The position numbers were made by a program, and so were the translations under genes. The notes under the pieces were generated by a model. The model worked only from the letters and a program-made list of their open reading frames with translations. It was not told the origin of the DNA and searched no databases. 43,425 nucleotides of DNA from Bacteroidales bacterium (GTDB lineage Bacteria; Bacteroidota; Bacteroidia; Bacteroidales; F082), in the NCBI GenBank assembly GCA_017460915.1, contig JAFUAA010000008.1:1-43425 (forward strand). The letters run 5' to 3'. Position 1 is the first letter of the stretch; each line of letters starts with the position of its first letter. Of this stretch, positions 17,505-23,445 are shown one piece after another.

Positions 17505-19136
17505 ATGAACAACGCACTAATTACATTTGCGAAGCCCGACAACGAGCCGGTAAAGGCTTACCGCCCGGGCAGCCCGGAGCGCATCGAGCTCCAAAAGGAA
17601 CTGGAAAGACAATCGAACGAAGTCGTCGAAATCCCCGCCATCATCAACGGGCAGGAAGTCCGCACGGGCGACATGGGTGAGGTCGTCATGCCTCACGACC
17701 ACAAGCACGTCATTGCCCGCTACCACAAGGTAGGCGAGAAGGAAGTCCGCATGGCCATCGACGCCGCCCAAGCCGCCAAGCACGACTGGGAGAACACACC
17801 TTGGGACGAGCGCGCCGCCATCATGGCACGCATCGGCGAGATGCTGGCCACCAAGTACCGCGCCCGCATCAACGCAGCCACGATGCTCGGCCAGTCGAAG
17901 AACTGCTTCCAAGCCGAAATCGACAGCGCCTGCGAGACTATCGACTTCTTCCGCTACAACAACTACTACGCCAGCAAGCTCTACGCCGAGCAGCCCGCTT
18001 CAGCCAACGACCAACTGAACCGCACCGAATACCGTCCGCTGGAAGGCTTCGTGTTCGCCATCACGCCTTTCAACTTCACCTCCATCGCCTCCAACCTCAA
18101 CATGACCCCCGCCTTGATAGGCAACACCACCATCTGGAAGCCCTCGACGACCGCCCTGCTGTCGAATTACACCGACATGCGCATCTTCATGGAAGCCGGT
18201 CTTCCCGCTGGCGTCGTCAACTTCCTGCCTGGCAAGGGCAGCGTCATCAGCGGCGTGGCCCTGAAGGACAAGAACTTCAACGCCATCCACTTCACCGGCA
18301 GCACCGCCACTTTCAAGAGCCTCTGGAAGACCACTGGCCAGAACCTTGACATGTACAAGGCCTATCCGCGCCTCGTGGGTGAGACCGGCGGCAAGGACTT
18401 CATCTTCGTCCACAACAGCGCCGACCCGCAAGAGGTGGCCGTGGCCATCGTGCGCGGCGCCTTCGAGTACCAAGGCCAAAAGTGCTCGGCCGCCTCGCGT
18501 GCCTACATCCCCGCTTCGATGTGGAACGACGTGAAGAACCGCGTGGGCGACATGATGAGCACCATCAAGATGGGCGACGTGAAAGACTTCACCAACTATG
18601 TGAACGCCGTCATCGACGAGGCCTCGTTCGACAACTGCAAGGGATACATCGATCGCGCCCAAGCTAGCAAGGACGCCGAAATCGTCTTCGGTGGTCACTG
18701 CGACAAAAGCGTGGGCTACTTCGTGGAACCCACCGTCATCCTCGCCAAGGTGCCGAACTACGAGAGCATGGTGGAAGAGATCTTCGGACCCATCATCACC
18801 ATCTATGTCTATGACGACAACAAGTTTGAGGAAATGCTGGACGTGTGCGACCAATCGTCGCCTTACGCCCTCACCGGCGCCTTCTTCGGCAACTGCCTGA
18901 AGGCCCAGAAGATTGCCAACGACAAGCTGCGACACGCAGCCGGCAACTACTACGTGAACGACAAGCCGACGGGAGCCGTGGTCGGCATGCAACCCTTCGG
19001 TGGCGCCCGCGCCAGCGGCACCAACGACAAGGCCGGCGGCCTCTGGAACCTCATCCGCTGGACCAGCCCGCGCGCCATCAAGAACACGTTTGTTCCTGCT
19101 GCCGCTTACGGATATCCGTTCTTGGCTAAGGATTAA
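17505..19136 (+). CDS. L-glutamate gamma-semialdehyde (1-pyrroline-5-carboxylate) dehydrogenase
   Basis: 543-residue NAD(P)-dependent aldehyde dehydrogenase that oxidises glutamate semialdehyde to glutamate in proline or arginine breakdown. The catalytic cysteine is C327 in GQKCSAASR and the general base E293 in GETGGKD. The N-terminal stretch (VEIPAIINGQEVRTGD) and the C-terminal NDKPTGAVVGMQPFGGARASGTNDKAGG motif region are typical of P5C dehydrogenases of the monofunctional eukaryote-like type. Codon use is strongly biased to G/C third positions, suggesting high expression. There is no proline dehydrogenase gene next to it. Confidence 0.95.
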   Translation: MNNALITFAKPDNEPVKAYRPGSPERIELQKELERQSNEVVEIPAIINGQEVRTGDMGEVVMPHDHKHVIARYHKVGEKEVRMAIDAAQAAKHDWENTPWDERAAIMARIGEMLATKYRARINAATMLGQSKNCFQAEIDSACETIDFFRYNNYYASKLYAEQPASANDQLNRTEYRPLEGFVFAITPFNFTSIASNLNMTPALIGNTTIWKPSTTALLSNYTDMRIFMEAGLPAGVVNFLPGKGSVISGVALKDKNFNAIHFTGSTATFKSLWKTTGQNLDMYKAYPRLVGETGGKDFIFVHNSADPQEVAVAIVRGAFEYQGQKCSAASRAYIPASMWNDVKNRVGDMMSTIKMGDVKDFTNYVNAVIDEASFDNCKGYIDRAQASKDAEIVFGGHCDKSVGYFVEPTVILAKVPNYESMVEEIFGPIITIYVYDDNKFEEMLDVCDQSSPYALTGAFFGNCLKAQKIANDKLRHAAGNYYVNDKPTGAVVGMQPFGGARASGTNDKAGGLWNLIRWTSPRAIKNTFVPAAAYGYPFLAKD

Positions 19137-19140
19137 TAAA

Positions 19141-19178
19141 TGTAAATGACGATTAATATTAATCGCAATTTACATTAT
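19141..19178. repeat. Palindromic repeat, copy A
   Basis: A 34-bp palindrome with arms TGTAAAT..CGATTAAT and ATTAATCG..ATTTACA (15 of 17 arm positions pair), followed by TTAT. It begins 4 bases after the dehydrogenase stop. Two related copies follow at 19242 and 20587. Confidence 0.85.
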
Positions 19179-19182
19179 CTTG

Positions 19183-19217
19183 AAAAAATCCGCCGAAAAT
19201 GCTTGGCGGATTTTTTT
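19183..19217 (+). terminator. Terminator of the P5C dehydrogenase gene
   Basis: AAAATCCGCC pairs with GGCGGATTTT, followed by a T-run to 19217. A clear Rho-independent terminator. Confidence 0.85.
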
Positions 19218-19224
19218 GTTTTTG

Positions 19225-19232
19225 TATCTTTG
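19225..19232 (+). promoter_or_regulatory. Promoter (-7 element) of the DUF234 ATPase gene
   Basis: TATCTTTG, exact consensus. The palindrome copy B begins 10 bases downstream, at or just after the expected transcription start. Confidence 0.7.
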
Positions 19233-19241
19233 CGGCGCAAA

Positions 19242-19279
19242 TGTAAATGATGATTTATATAAATAACGATTCATATTAT
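19242..19279. repeat. Palindromic repeat, copy B (leader of ATPase gene)
   Basis: Same 34-38 bp pattern as copies A and C, with less perfect symmetry (12 of 17 arm positions). Its left half differs from copy A at only 2 of 17 positions. It fills the interval between transcription start and the ATG at 19278, so a protein bound here, or the hairpin in the mRNA, could control expression. Confidence 0.75.
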
Positions 19280-20591
19280 GAAATTCTACGACAGGGAAAT
19301 GGAACTGGGACTGCTGTTGCAAAGCGAAAAGCAGACCGAAAGGTCGGCGGTGTTCACCGTGCTGACGGGACGTCGCCGCGTTGGAAAGACCTCGCTGATT
19401 AACAAGGCTTTGGAAGGCAAAAACGTCGCTTACCTTTTCGTCTCGAAAGACAGCGAGGCGGTGCTTTGCCAGAAGTTCCAGCAGACGATTCAAGAGCAGT
19501 TGGGCATCCAAGTCTATGGCCAAATCAGCCGCTTCCGCGACTTGTTTGAGGTGATTATGAAAGAGTCGTTACAGCGGCATTTCACCGTTTTCTTCGACGA
19601 ATTCCAGAACCTCCAAAAGGTGAATCCCGCCATCTTCAGCGAGATACAAGACCTTTGGGACCGCTATCATCGCGAGTCGCACATGCACTTGGTGGCCTCG
19701 GGCAGCATCCAATCGCTGATGAAGCGCATCTTCGAGGACGAGAACGAGCCGCTTTACGGTCGTCCGACCTCGAAATTCACCCTCCTGCCCTTCCGCATCG
19801 AGGTGCTGAAGCAAATCTTCCGCGACCACTGCCCCAACTACAAGAACGAGGACCTGCTCTGCCTCTATATGATTACTGGCGGCGTGGCCAAATACGTCGA
19901 GCTGCTGATGGACGCGCAGTGCTTCACCAAGGAAAAGATGCTCAACTACGTTTGCCGCCCCGACTCCTATTTCCTCACCGAAGGCCGCGACCTGATGTAT
20001 CAAGAGTTTAGCGACGAGGGAAACACCTATTTCTCAGTGCTACAACTGATTGCCAGCGGCATGACCAAACGCAGCGAGATTGACGGCGCGATGCAAAAGG
20101 ATATGGGCGTGTATTTGCAGAACTTGGAGAAGAACTTCATACTCGTGAAGCGTCTCAAGCCCTTGCTGGCCAAGCCCAACAGCAAGGTCTCGGCCTACGA
20201 GATTTCGGACCAGTTCCTGCGCTTTTGGTTCCGTTTCATCTGGCCTTACCAGTCGCTGATTGAGCGCCAGCAACTGGGGGCATTGCGGCAGAATATGGGG
20301 AAGTATTACGAAAAATTCTCGGGTCGCACGCTCGAACAGTATTTCCAAGCCAAGGCGATGGAATCGGGCGAGTTCACGATGGTCGGCAACTGGTGGGACC
20401 GCAAAGGGGAGAACGAAATCGACATGATAGCCCTCAACGAATTCGAGCACAATGGCATCGTGGCCGAAATCAAGCGCAACCCTGAGAAAATCAACCCCAA
20501 GACACTTGAGGAGCGAGTCAAGGCCTTGCCTGCGAACGCCTTCGGGAAGTATGAGCTTTCGCTTCAAGCCTTATCAATCGAAGATATGTAA
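19278..20591 (+). CDS. AAA ATPase with DUF234 / PD-(D/E)XK nuclease-like C-terminus
   Basis: 437 residues. The N-terminal ATPase has Walker A GRRRVGKTS (31-39) and Walker B FFDEFQN (D107, E108), with LVASGS as a sensor-like motif. A winged-helix region follows, and the C-terminal part shows a nuclease-like pattern: E380-x-D382 in GENEIDMIAL and E397-x-K399 in VAEIKRN. This is the DUF234-containing ATPase family, abundant in archaea, Bacteroidota and Thermotogae and without an established function. The gene is framed by three related palindromes. A role in a selfish or defence-like element is possible but unproven. Confidence 0.88.
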   Translation: MKFYDREMELGLLLQSEKQTERSAVFTVLTGRRRVGKTSLINKALEGKNVAYLFVSKDSEAVLCQKFQQTIQEQLGIQVYGQISRFRDLFEVIMKESLQRHFTVFFDEFQNLQKVNPAIFSEIQDLWDRYHRESHMHLVASGSIQSLMKRIFEDENEPLYGRPTSKFTLLPFRIEVLKQIFRDHCPNYKNEDLLCLYMITGGVAKYVELLMDAQCFTKEKMLNYVCRPDSYFLTEGRDLMYQEFSDEGNTYFSVLQLIASGMTKRSEIDGAMQKDMGVYLQNLEKNFILVKRLKPLLAKPNSKVSAYEISDQFLRFWFRFIWPYQSLIERQQLGALRQNMGKYYEKFSGRTLEQYFQAKAMESGEFTMVGNWWDRKGENEIDMIALNEFEHNGIVAEIKRNPEKINPKTLEERVKALPANAFGKYELSLQALSIEDM

Positions 20592-20624
20592 ACTACAATT
20601 AATACTAATTGCAGTTTACATTAT
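20587..20624. repeat. Palindromic repeat, copy C (over the ATPase stop codon)
   Basis: 34-bp palindrome with TGTAAACT.CAATTA and TAATTGCAGTTTACA arms (15 of 17 arm positions), again followed by TTAT. Its first bases include the end of the last sense codon and the TAA stop of the ATPase gene. Confidence 0.85.
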
Positions 20625-20732: not shown

Positions 20733-21740
20733 ATGGTAAGCTACAAAGAATTAGGGCTCGTGAACACCCGTAAAATGTTCGCCAAGGCGGTCAGCGGCGG
20801 CTATGCCATCCCGGCCTTCAACTTCAACAATATGGAACAGATGCAGGCCATCATCATGGCAGCGGTCGAGACCCAGTCGCCCGTCATCCTGCAAGTGTCG
20901 AAAGGCGCGCGCAACTACGCCAACCAAACCCTGCTGCGCTACATGGCCCAAGGCGCTGTGGAATACGCCAAGGAACTCGGCTGCGCCCATCCCGAAATCG
21001 TGCTCCACTTGGACCACGGCGACAGCTTTGAACTCTGCAAATCGTGCATTGACATGGGCTTCTCGTCGGTGATGATTGACGGCTCTGCCCTGCCCTACGA
21101 CGAGAACGTGGCCCTCACCCGCAAGGTCGTCGATTACGCCCACCAGTATGACGTGACCGTGGAAGGCGAACTCGGTGTGCTGGCTGGCGTGGAGGACGAA
21201 GTGGCCGCTGAAGAAAGCCACTACACCAAGCCCGAGGAAGTCATCGACTTCGTCACCAAGACCGGCGTGGACAGCTTGGCCATCAGCATCGGCACCTCGC
21301 ATGGCGCCTACAAGTTCACTCCCGAGCAGTGCACCGTCGACCCTGAGACGGGTCGCCTCGTGCCGCCTCCGTTGGCTTTCGACGTGCTGGAGGCCATCGA
21401 GAAGAAGTTGCCCGGCTTCCCGATTGTACTGCACGGCTCGTCGTCGGTGCCGCAGGACGATGTGGACACCATTAATAAATATGGTGGTTCGCTGAAGGCG
21501 GCAGTCGGCATCCCCGAGGAGCAGCTGCGCAAGGCCGCCAAGAGCGCCGTCTGCAAGATCAACATCGACAGCGACAGCCGCTTGGCCATGACCGCCGCCA
21601 TCCGCAAGGCTTTGGCCGAGAAACCTGCCGAATTCGACCCTCGCAAGTACCTCACCCCCGCCCGCGAAAGTATGCAGAAGCTTTACATCCACAAGATTGT
21701 GAATGTTTTGGGCTCGAATGACAAACTTGAGGATGCTTAA
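20733..21740 (+). CDS. fbaA: Class II fructose-1,6-bisphosphate aldolase
   Basis: 335-residue zinc-dependent aldolase that splits fructose 1,6-bisphosphate to dihydroxyacetone phosphate and glyceraldehyde 3-phosphate. Metal and substrate residues are seen in LHLDHGD (D94, H95), GTSHGAYKF and VLHGSSSVP, with VEGELG in between. Length and N-terminus (MVSYKELGLVNTRKMFAKAV) match the Bacteroidota enzyme. Heavy use of G/C-ending codons suggests strong expression. The symbol follows common usage for class II enzymes; fba would be equally valid. Confidence 0.96.
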   Translation: MVSYKELGLVNTRKMFAKAVSGGYAIPAFNFNNMEQMQAIIMAAVETQSPVILQVSKGARNYANQTLLRYMAQGAVEYAKELGCAHPEIVLHLDHGDSFELCKSCIDMGFSSVMIDGSALPYDENVALTRKVVDYAHQYDVTVEGELGVLAGVEDEVAAEESHYTKPEEVIDFVTKTGVDSLAISIGTSHGAYKFTPEQCTVDPETGRLVPPPLAFDVLEAIEKKLPGFPIVLHGSSSVPQDDVDTINKYGGSLKAAVGIPEEQLRKAAKSAVCKINIDSDSRLAMTAAIRKALAEKPAEFDPRKYLTPARESMQKLYIHKIVNVLGSNDKLEDA

Positions 21741-22138: not shown

Positions 22139-23416
22139 CTAATCCCTCATGCAGCCAATCGGTACGACGAAAATGCCATCTTGGCGCTGATAGGCATATC
22201 GTCCGATGGCCGTCAGCACCATCTTAAAGGATGGATTGGGCATTTTCGAATTATCGATGGTCGCTGAAAGCGTATTCAGAGTTTCCACGCCCTCCTCAAT
22301 AAGCTTTTCGCCCCCCAATTTCACCTCAATCAATGCGTAATTGCCATTGCGACGGTGCAAAACCGTGTCGCATTCCAACCCCGAGCTGTCACGATAATGA
22401 AACAATCTGCCATCGAGAGCTTCGGCAAACACACGCAAATCACGAACAGCAAGATCTTCAAAAAACAACCCGAAAGAATTCAAATCATTGACGAGGTCAT
22501 TTGGTCCAAGGCCAAGAGATGCCGTACCGATACTTGGGTCGACAAAATGTCGGGTATCTCCAGTCCTGATGGCCGACTTACTACGAATGTTCGGATTCCA
22601 TGCCGGCAAATCCTCAACAACAAACAGTCGCTTTAGCGCCATGATATAGTCGGCAATGGTGTCCTCATCTAAAGACTTGGAGTCATTCGACAACATATCT
22701 GCTTTTATAGTGCCATACGAAACCTGTTGTGAGATATTCCGCGCATAGGAGCGCATCAGGAGTCGTGCACGTTCGGGGCTGCGTCTCACACCATCAACAC
22801 GACGAATATCGAGCTCCGTAATAGCATCAACATAATCAAGAGCCTGGTCAAGAGCCAATTCACCCTCCAAAAACGTGGCTTGCGGCCAACCTCCTCGGCA
22901 GGTGAGATAAGCCATCGTTTGCAGGTCTATTCCATTTGCCTGTGGCTCAAGAGTTTTCCCATCAAACAAATCTCGTAGACTTACACTGCCCGTCGATTCG
23001 CCTGACTCAAACAAACTCATCGGTCTCATTTTTAATCGGGCAAAACGACCCGTTCCGCTATGGGTGGTTTCGTCGGCTTGAGGCAGCACCGAAGAACCTG
23101 TTAGGATGAATTGGGAGAACGTCCCCCGATGGTCAACTTCAGTCCGGGTCGCATCCCACAAAAGCGGGATGGTCTGCCATTCGTCAATGAGTCGAGGCGT
23201 TTCGCCTTGCAATAATGTTTTGGGGCTAACCTCCATCATCTGCCGACTTTGTCTCAACACATCGCCATCGCCGAGGTCAAGCATGCTTTTGGATTGCTGG
23301 CGGGCCGTCGTGGTCTTACCGCACCATTTGGGGCCTTCTATCAGCACCGCACCTTTTCCGGCCAATTTGCGGGAGAGAATTCTGTCTGCAACTCGGGATT
23401 TGTACTCTTTATTCAT
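22139..23416 (-). CDS. AAA ATPase with DUF4143 domain
   Basis: 425 residues. The N-terminal AAA_14-type ATPase has Walker A GPKWCGKTT (28-36), Walker B RLIDEWQ (D78, E79) and the sensor motif LTGSS (106-109). The C-terminal DUF4143 part contains a nuclease-like pattern, with SGLECDTVLHRRNGNYALIEVKLGG showing D-x(n)-E-x-K. The family is widespread and of unknown function. The frame is open a further 7 codons to a TTG, but the promoter places the start at the ATG at 23416. The gene is bracketed by direct repeats and has 23-bp iterated sites upstream, both signs of an inserted unit. Confidence 0.88.
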   Translation of the reverse strand: MNKEYKSRVADRILSRKLAGKGAVLIEGPKWCGKTTTARQQSKSMLDLGDGDVLRQSRQMMEVSPKTLLQGETPRLIDEWQTIPLLWDATRTEVDHRGTFSQFILTGSSVLPQADETTHSGTGRFARLKMRPMSLFESGESTGSVSLRDLFDGKTLEPQANGIDLQTMAYLTCRGGWPQATFLEGELALDQALDYVDAITELDIRRVDGVRRSPERARLLMRSYARNISQQVSYGTIKADMLSNDSKSLDEDTIADYIMALKRLFVVEDLPAWNPNIRSKSAIRTGDTRHFVDPSIGTASLGLGPNDLVNDLNSFGLFFEDLAVRDLRVFAEALDGRLFHYRDSSGLECDTVLHRRNGNYALIEVKLGGEKLIEEGVETLNTLSATIDNSKMPNPSFKMVLTAIGRYAYQRQDGIFVVPIGCMRD

Positions 23417-23445
23417 GATTTTCTTGTTGGATTTCAATTTTGCTG

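Follow-up and report, generated by a model that had tools for sequence, protein, structure and literature searches.

A single gene of the 43,425-nt stretch of DNA analyzed here (positions 1 to 43,425 of Bacteroidales contig JAFUAA010000008.1, hereafter the window) is preceded by two overlapping dyads, together termed B, that lie between its promoter and its start codon. The gene encodes a predicted ATPase-winged helix-nuclease protein, and from its sequence context we read B as probably a self-recognized, autoregulatory operator, with gene and operator forming a gene-sized cassette that in some clades has extra sites, A and C.

Palindromes and protein of the window

The first-pass annotation had described three palindromes marking an ATPase/nuclease gene and none of its neighbors. 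They are real and form one repeat family at a single locus of the genome, and the restriction to this gene holds in the window and in the loci scanned. Palindrome A (34 bp at 19141-19174, with TTAT to 19178) is located between the stop codon of an aldehyde dehydrogenase gene (17505-19136; Pfam Aldedh, 2.7e-100) and a terminator-like hairpin with 12-bp perfect arms and a T run (19183-19216). Palindrome B (19242-19279, with a 34-bp part at 19242-19275) reaches the ATG at 19278 and follows the sequence TATCTTTG at 19225-19232, which we take to be a Bacteroidota-type -7 box. Palindrome C (34 bp at 20587-20620, with TTAT to 20624) spans the ATPase stop codon at 20589-20591, so that the placement given earlier, with A before the promoter, B between promoter and ATG and C across the stop codon, was correct. 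The downstream neighbor is a class II fructose-bisphosphate aldolase gene (20733-21740; Pfam F_bP_aldolase, 4.2e-98). All of these features are on the forward strand, and both neighboring genes are outside the unit. A second ATPase gene (22139-23437, reverse strand; AAA_14 and DUF4143, PADLOC PDC-S01 7.8e-59) was observed 1.5 kb past the unit.

In a repeat search, the three sites were recovered as 41-nt copies, B and C being 80% and 83% identical to A, and A and C shared 72% identity across 76 nt. The arms were recounted from the sequence and pair at 15 of 17 positions in both A and C, as claimed, and at 12 of 17 in B. A degenerate 38-bp pattern built from all three copies (up to three mismatches) matched the 2.98-Mb genome at A, B and C only, and its backwards control gave no match in the same genome. 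A looser search for TGTAAA-N(18-28)-TTTACA returned seven places, namely A, C and five unlike them. Three 36-bp palindromes of the form TGTAAA..TTTACA-CC/GG-TGTAAA..TTTACA were also seen (G000:C12:4934-4969, G000:C78:15350-15385 and G000:C78:32157-32192). The sites are better described as overlapping dyads, TAAAY-N4-RTTWA, at 16-bp pitch than as palindromes; B consists of two such dyads, each with a 5-bp half-site and a free spacer of 4 nt.

The gene (19278-20591, forward strand) encodes 437 amino acids, assigned with Pfam, PADLOC, a structure model and Foldseek to an ATPase (residues ~1-230), a winged helix (~236-312) and a PD-(D/E)XK-like DUF234 region (345-437), the domain limits being set by eye. 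Pfam ATPase_2 (PF01637) matched at 3.4e-15 and 56.9 bits (cut-off 33.2) and DUF234 (PF03008) at 2.3e-11 and 44.4 bits (cut-off 22.5). Two PADLOC PDC-S27 profiles matched, the best at 1.2e-41 over residues 2-412 and hence most of the protein. NCBIfam gave nothing at E 1. The AlphaFold2 model, based on 38 aligned sequences, has a mean pLDDT of 93.9 and predicts a winged helix with helices at 245-259, 265-272 and 277-285 and strands at 290-293 and 306-309. Its C-terminal alpha/beta region carries the conserved residues E353 and D382 (invariant) and E397 and K399 (in at least 90% of the 38 sequences), presumably the active-site motif of a PD-(D/E)XK nuclease as found in PDC-S27 or ATPase_2-DUF234 proteins. 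At E 0.01, no sequence in the PDB matched. The nearest solved folds in Foldseek were archaeal, 2qen (P. abyssi, paby2304) and 2fna (SSO1545), with a TM of 0.53 by model length; their chains have 350 and 352 residues, whereas the 437-residue model includes the C-terminal nuclease-like region. Further matches were to ORC/Cdc6 and CED-4/Apaf-1, ATPases that also carry winged helices. Binding of repeats close to the gene that encodes the protein is a further trait of Orc1/Cdc6 initiators; the dyads of the window family differ in being located in the promoter leader and in varying by clade. In viral contigs, one relative was found.

Conservation and grammar of the dyads

In order to follow the sites among orthologs, 36 loci (L034-L068 and L070, identity above 66%) were scanned whole with the core TAAAY-N4-RTTWATATWAAY-N4-RTTWAYAT, allowing up to three mismatches. 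L043 is truncated, leaving 35 loci with upstream DNA, and in all 35 the B core starts 33-35 nt before the ATG. An exact -7 box, TANNTTTG, precedes B at -52 to -56 in 31 of the 35. The dyads between promoter and start are thus kept throughout. The only other positions of the core in these loci are A and C, together with extensions of C. An A-type copy occurs at about -136 in eight of the 36 loci and a C-type copy (with extensions) in ten, all of them in the clade nearest the window gene; most orthologs have B alone, and terminal repeats in every copy, as in a transposon, are not what is seen. Equivalence of the three palindromes is not supported. The suggestion of a tightly regulated unit has support for B, which is in all 35 orthologs and in versions of their own before many bacterial and archaeal paralogs; A and C are a separate matter.

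Among 173 family genomes, a 33-bp core pattern (up to one mismatch) was found in 14, its backwards control giving one match. The near relatives of the window are rumen and gut metagenome-assembled genomes titled Bacteroidales, Bacteroidia and similar. Judged by position, 11 of the 14 genomes have A, B and C, B and C (G012), or C alone at a contig end (G125); G021 and G114 have B alone, and in G145 one locus has B and a second locus has a solo site. The expectation that the pattern occurs only beside the ATPase gene is borne out at 30 of 30 loci listed and in all 14 genomes, with the solo site in G145 (contig C13), which lacks an ATPase, as the exception.

For the wider family a dyad score was used, designed after the first upstream regions had been viewed, in which two dyads, comprising four 5-bp half-sites with spacer 3-5 and pitch 14-17, are sought within 85 nt before the ATG, with a maximum agreement of 20 and a threshold of 18. 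B of the window scores 19 of 20 (p=0.005, 200 shuffles). Among the 73 members with at least 28% identity, 57 reached the threshold (orthologs 27/35, other bacterial 24/26, archaeal 6/12), counts that are not independent events since members are related by descent, as against one of 17 remote ATPases and four of 169 unrelated control genes in the same loci. Several orthologs taken singly have p>0.05 against their own shuffles (e.g. L006, p=0.31). Members fetched later reached 18 less often (33/90 archaeal, 10/29 Bacteroidota; 27/78 and 9/28 after removal of those already scored, 85 nt). Many of these misses are seemingly due to start codons annotated too far upstream, in many archaeal members, and the windows were therefore re-anchored on a conserved F and set to 110 nt. 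With this anchoring, and with members scored earlier taken in, the threshold is reached above 300 bits by 51 of 62 bacterial and 33 of 47 archaeal members (84/109), at 200-300 bits by 4 of 10 bacterial and 16 of 42 archaeal members, below 200 bits by 5 of 34, and by 8 of the 169 control genes. Below the threshold are 25 of 109 members above 300 bits, including the strong members L180 and L296 with no dyads in the re-anchored window, and 32 of 52 at 200-300 bits. Based on the pattern searches, backwards controls, shuffles and control genes, a chance origin of the dyads was rejected.

The same grammar, in the same place and with another half-site, is seen in most paralogs of 40-54% identity and in many homologs from Archaea. 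In Bacteroidota these are TAAAT (the window clade), TTAAY, GTAAC, GTAAT, GTATT, GAACT and GAAAT, and in Archaea ATACT, ATTGT, ATTCA, ATCCA, ATTAT and others; four types occur in genome G018 and three in G000. The grammar is thus general in the family and the half-site sequence private to the clade. At L248, L258, L265 and similar archaeal loci, a symmetrical leader of two unlike dyads reaching the first codons was seen by eye; such leaders escape a score that demands equal half-sites.

Cassette boundaries and locus states

Flanks were aligned for 21 pairs of similar genes. Several pairs in unrelated surroundings have little in common beyond promoter, operator and gene: L058/L059 (97.5% identity, -67 to +34), L060/L068 (89%, -95 to +2), L052/L054 (92%, -96 to +1, with a further 69% over 283 nt downstream), L056/L064 (91%, -83 to 0) and L047/L053 (87%, -79 to +121). 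Different loci with tight boundaries, as looked for in a transposon, were found in several of the 21 pairs and in two more. Short or weaker extra matches exist outside the shared cassettes in some pairs, and other pairs have long common flanks or ends inside the gene, so that tight boundaries are not universal. In four pairs the break falls on a palindrome: the shared DNA of L035/L039 and L036/L041 begins at the left edge of A (L035/L039 having 3 kb downstream also in common), and that of L031/L032 and L031/L101 ends at the right edge of C. L031, L032 and L101 are members of the GTAAT clade, whose proteins are 42-43% identical to the window protein and whose genes have an A-promoter-B-gene-C layout of their own. 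A member's own motif was found downstream in 7 of 89 members as against 0.9 expected from other members' motifs, by strict matching that misses near-clade copies such as L034; two of the seven (L051 and L247) are single dyads with one mismatch and may be chance. The shared units hold one gene and no transposase was seen in them, nor was any target duplication or circle seen at the loci compared. The upstream flank of L058 was not found in the genomes of L059, L061 and L062, which thus offer no empty site. At L068, an imperfect direct repeat of ~36 bp was noticed by eye on both sides of the cassette.

One locus was found in three states. It is empty in G021, where the dehydrogenase is followed by a gene Y (84% identical to the solo locus on its Y side), and in G016, where Y was recognized by its leader sequence; the 33-bp core search found no palindrome at either junction. 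It is occupied in G130 (L155, the same sequence as L039), in the order dehydrogenase-A-ATPase-C-Y. G145 has no ATPase there and one palindrome before Y, with TTATTTTGA and a terminator-like hairpin behind the palindrome. To the right of this solo site, 3 kb are colinear with the C side of L035, L036, L037 and L039 (75-76%), and to the left it matches the A side of L038 (82.8% over 501 bp), after which A follows. A relative without the gene and with one palindrome left, which the first-pass annotation had suggested looking for, thus exists at a matching junction, and recombination of A with C, as direct repeats, could account for it. The evidence does not establish a clean insertion in G021: in G124 the flank resumes about 16 nt after the stop codon, but the left side of the G021 site is rearranged, with imperfect direct repeats beside it. 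Among the aldehyde dehydrogenase loci, 26 of 30 listed have no ATPase match in the fetched stretch, and in G003 (L162) the aldolase is located directly behind the dehydrogenase, with no ATPase.

A sister ATPase family shows a comparable arrangement. Its gene at G000:C22:140740 (473 aa; ATPase_2 on the 318 residues tested) is part of a unit at G000:C22:140197-141832 (L111, L333; also L334 and L335), in which direct repeats of ~98 bp flank the gene, two 35-bp palindromes making up each repeat. This palindrome occurs in 14 of 99 genus genomes and its backwards control in none. Beside the glycosyl hydrolase family 2 gene V that neighbors the locus, 7 of 30 V loci listed are occupied (G000, G007, G018, G125, G126, G127 and G130, with G125 at a contig end) and 19 are empty, a W-like gene (28-52% identical) lying within 51-108 bp so that an insert would not fit. 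Two (G012 and G022) have one repeat pair only; both their flanks are colinear, and 5.5 kb contain no ATPase. Two lack a W-like neighbor. Like the window gene, the sister family combines ATPase_2, flanking palindromic repeats, three locus states and, by eye, a QIDLI...CEIK nuclease-like motif. Unlike it, the sister genes have no tandem leader dyads (L093 and L022 score 14), and their paired repeats are richer in G+C. Of 16 remote ATPase loci tested, L111, L022, L110, L114, L023 and L109 have long repeats in both flanks, and L107 a weak inverted match between them. The ATPases of L110, L114 and L023 are of 472-483 aa, with ~48, 94 and 52 bp common to both flanks.

Recognition of the dyads and role of the gene

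Half-sites and proteins covary, and the operator therefore belongs to the ATPase gene. In 70 non-redundant members picked for having dyads, half-site similarity correlated with identity of the recognition-helix segment (rho 0.35), the whole winged helix (0.32), the nuclease segment (0.35) and the ATPase (0.23). The partial rho was 0.20 (p 0.002, 500 permutations) for the recognition segment given ATPase and nuclease, 0.20 (p 0.002) for the nuclease segment given winged helix and ATPase, and 0.04 (p 0.17) for the ATPase given winged helix and nuclease. The statistic does not single out the winged helix, as the nuclease segment does equally well. The reader of the dyads is likely the protein's own winged helix, judging from the predicted domains, and a partner protein could bind them instead of the ATPase.

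Control by a dedicated repressor is a common arrangement, and that the ATPase itself binds is our inference; the dyads might then be operators of separate regulators encoded elsewhere, one for each half-site type. We consider this quite unlikely, since the cassettes have a single gene in common, the half-sites track the ATPase clade across hosts and domains, and the site occurs at one locus in the genome. For the last reason the motif is also not the site of a general regulator, and the regulon of a general factor was rejected. An origin as RNA hairpins, in leaders or terminators, appears more improbable still. A and C could fold, with 2.38 of 4 spacer positions complementary in A (8 related loci) and 1.56 in C (9 loci). 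In B, however, the spacers vary freely and 0.89 of 4 positions are complementary as against 0.96 expected (35 loci), and the conserved parts therefore look like DNA contacts of a dimer and not like an RNA stem. In the window, no Rfam family matches at gathering score, and a separate terminator-like hairpin (19183-19216) is present; hairpins like it were seen by eye behind the dehydrogenase in several genomes that lack the ATPase. With neither a known family nor pairing of its variable part, B was rejected as a structured RNA leader.

A stronger competitor, though one that we hold to be doubtful, is that a mobile single-gene element has A and C as its working ends, which the protein would bind and its nuclease cut so that the A-C unit is excised or inserted; B would be this site put to a second use as operator. 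Similar genes in unrelated surroundings that share mainly promoter, operator and gene, breaks at the edges of A or C in four pairs, the same layout in the GTAAT clade, the excess of own motifs downstream and the solo palindrome at a matching junction all speak for it. Against this, A and C are missing from most orthologs, and cassettes whose only site is B are also found at different loci. A gene flanked by two similar direct repeats can be lost without an enzyme, the solo site in G145 is a single case in the PDC-S27-type family, no target duplication or circle was seen, the G021 site is rearranged on the left, and the downstream matches of L051 and L247 may be chance. The earlier idea of A and C as ends of a mobile unit thus gains from the breaks and the solo palindrome, but A and C occur in one ortholog clade and are not general. 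As borders, A and C may either be used by the protein or merely recombine.

In the autoregulatory reading that we prefer, a single-gene PDC-S27/DUF234-type protein would read its own DNA mark. Dimers, putatively of this protein, would bind the two dyads of B, set 15-16 bp or about 1.5 helical turns apart, and B would cover the predicted transcription start and the 5' leader, presumably keeping the gene repressed until the protein is titrated or changed in state. With half-sites particular to each clade, paralogs in one cell need not cross-talk. A and C would be extra copies of the B-type site at the two ends of the gene in some clades. Gene and operator appear to move between loci as a gene-sized cassette, by whatever cause, and recombination between flanking copies could drop the gene and leave one site.

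The gene probably has a role in defense, because of its PDC-S27 match. PDC-S27 is a PADLOC phage-defense candidate in which, as in the window protein, an ATPase is fused to a PD-(D/E)XK nuclease (PMC12988326). Archaeal genomes contain 3503 PDC-S27 systems and bacterial genomes 4562; most PDC systems still await validation, and the available part of the description states none for S27 (PMC12988326). That part mentions no operator, palindromes or cassette boundaries such as those of the window gene, and the open-licence full texts searched (including PMC12988326 and PMC13356809) yielded no such operators or flanking palindromes and no tested function for PDC-S27. This is weak evidence of novelty, since open-licence full texts alone were covered. 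Downstream of the L068 cassette, an AAA_5 gene that looks McrB-like adjoins it. As a speculation that we rate as improbable, bacterial and archaeal genes of this kind might be self-addressed selfish or defense cassettes, their private dyad code serving as both operator and border without a transposase, and the empty, occupied and border-only loci being stages of one cycle.

A private operator for each clade provides an immediate, testable DNA ligand for each protein of a large and little-studied family, and the pairs of recognition segment and half-site are material for a specificity code. The three locus states give a handle on the gain and loss of single-gene units. Private operators would also explain how many paralogs, such as the 30 profile matches in one archaeal genome, coexist without cross-talk.
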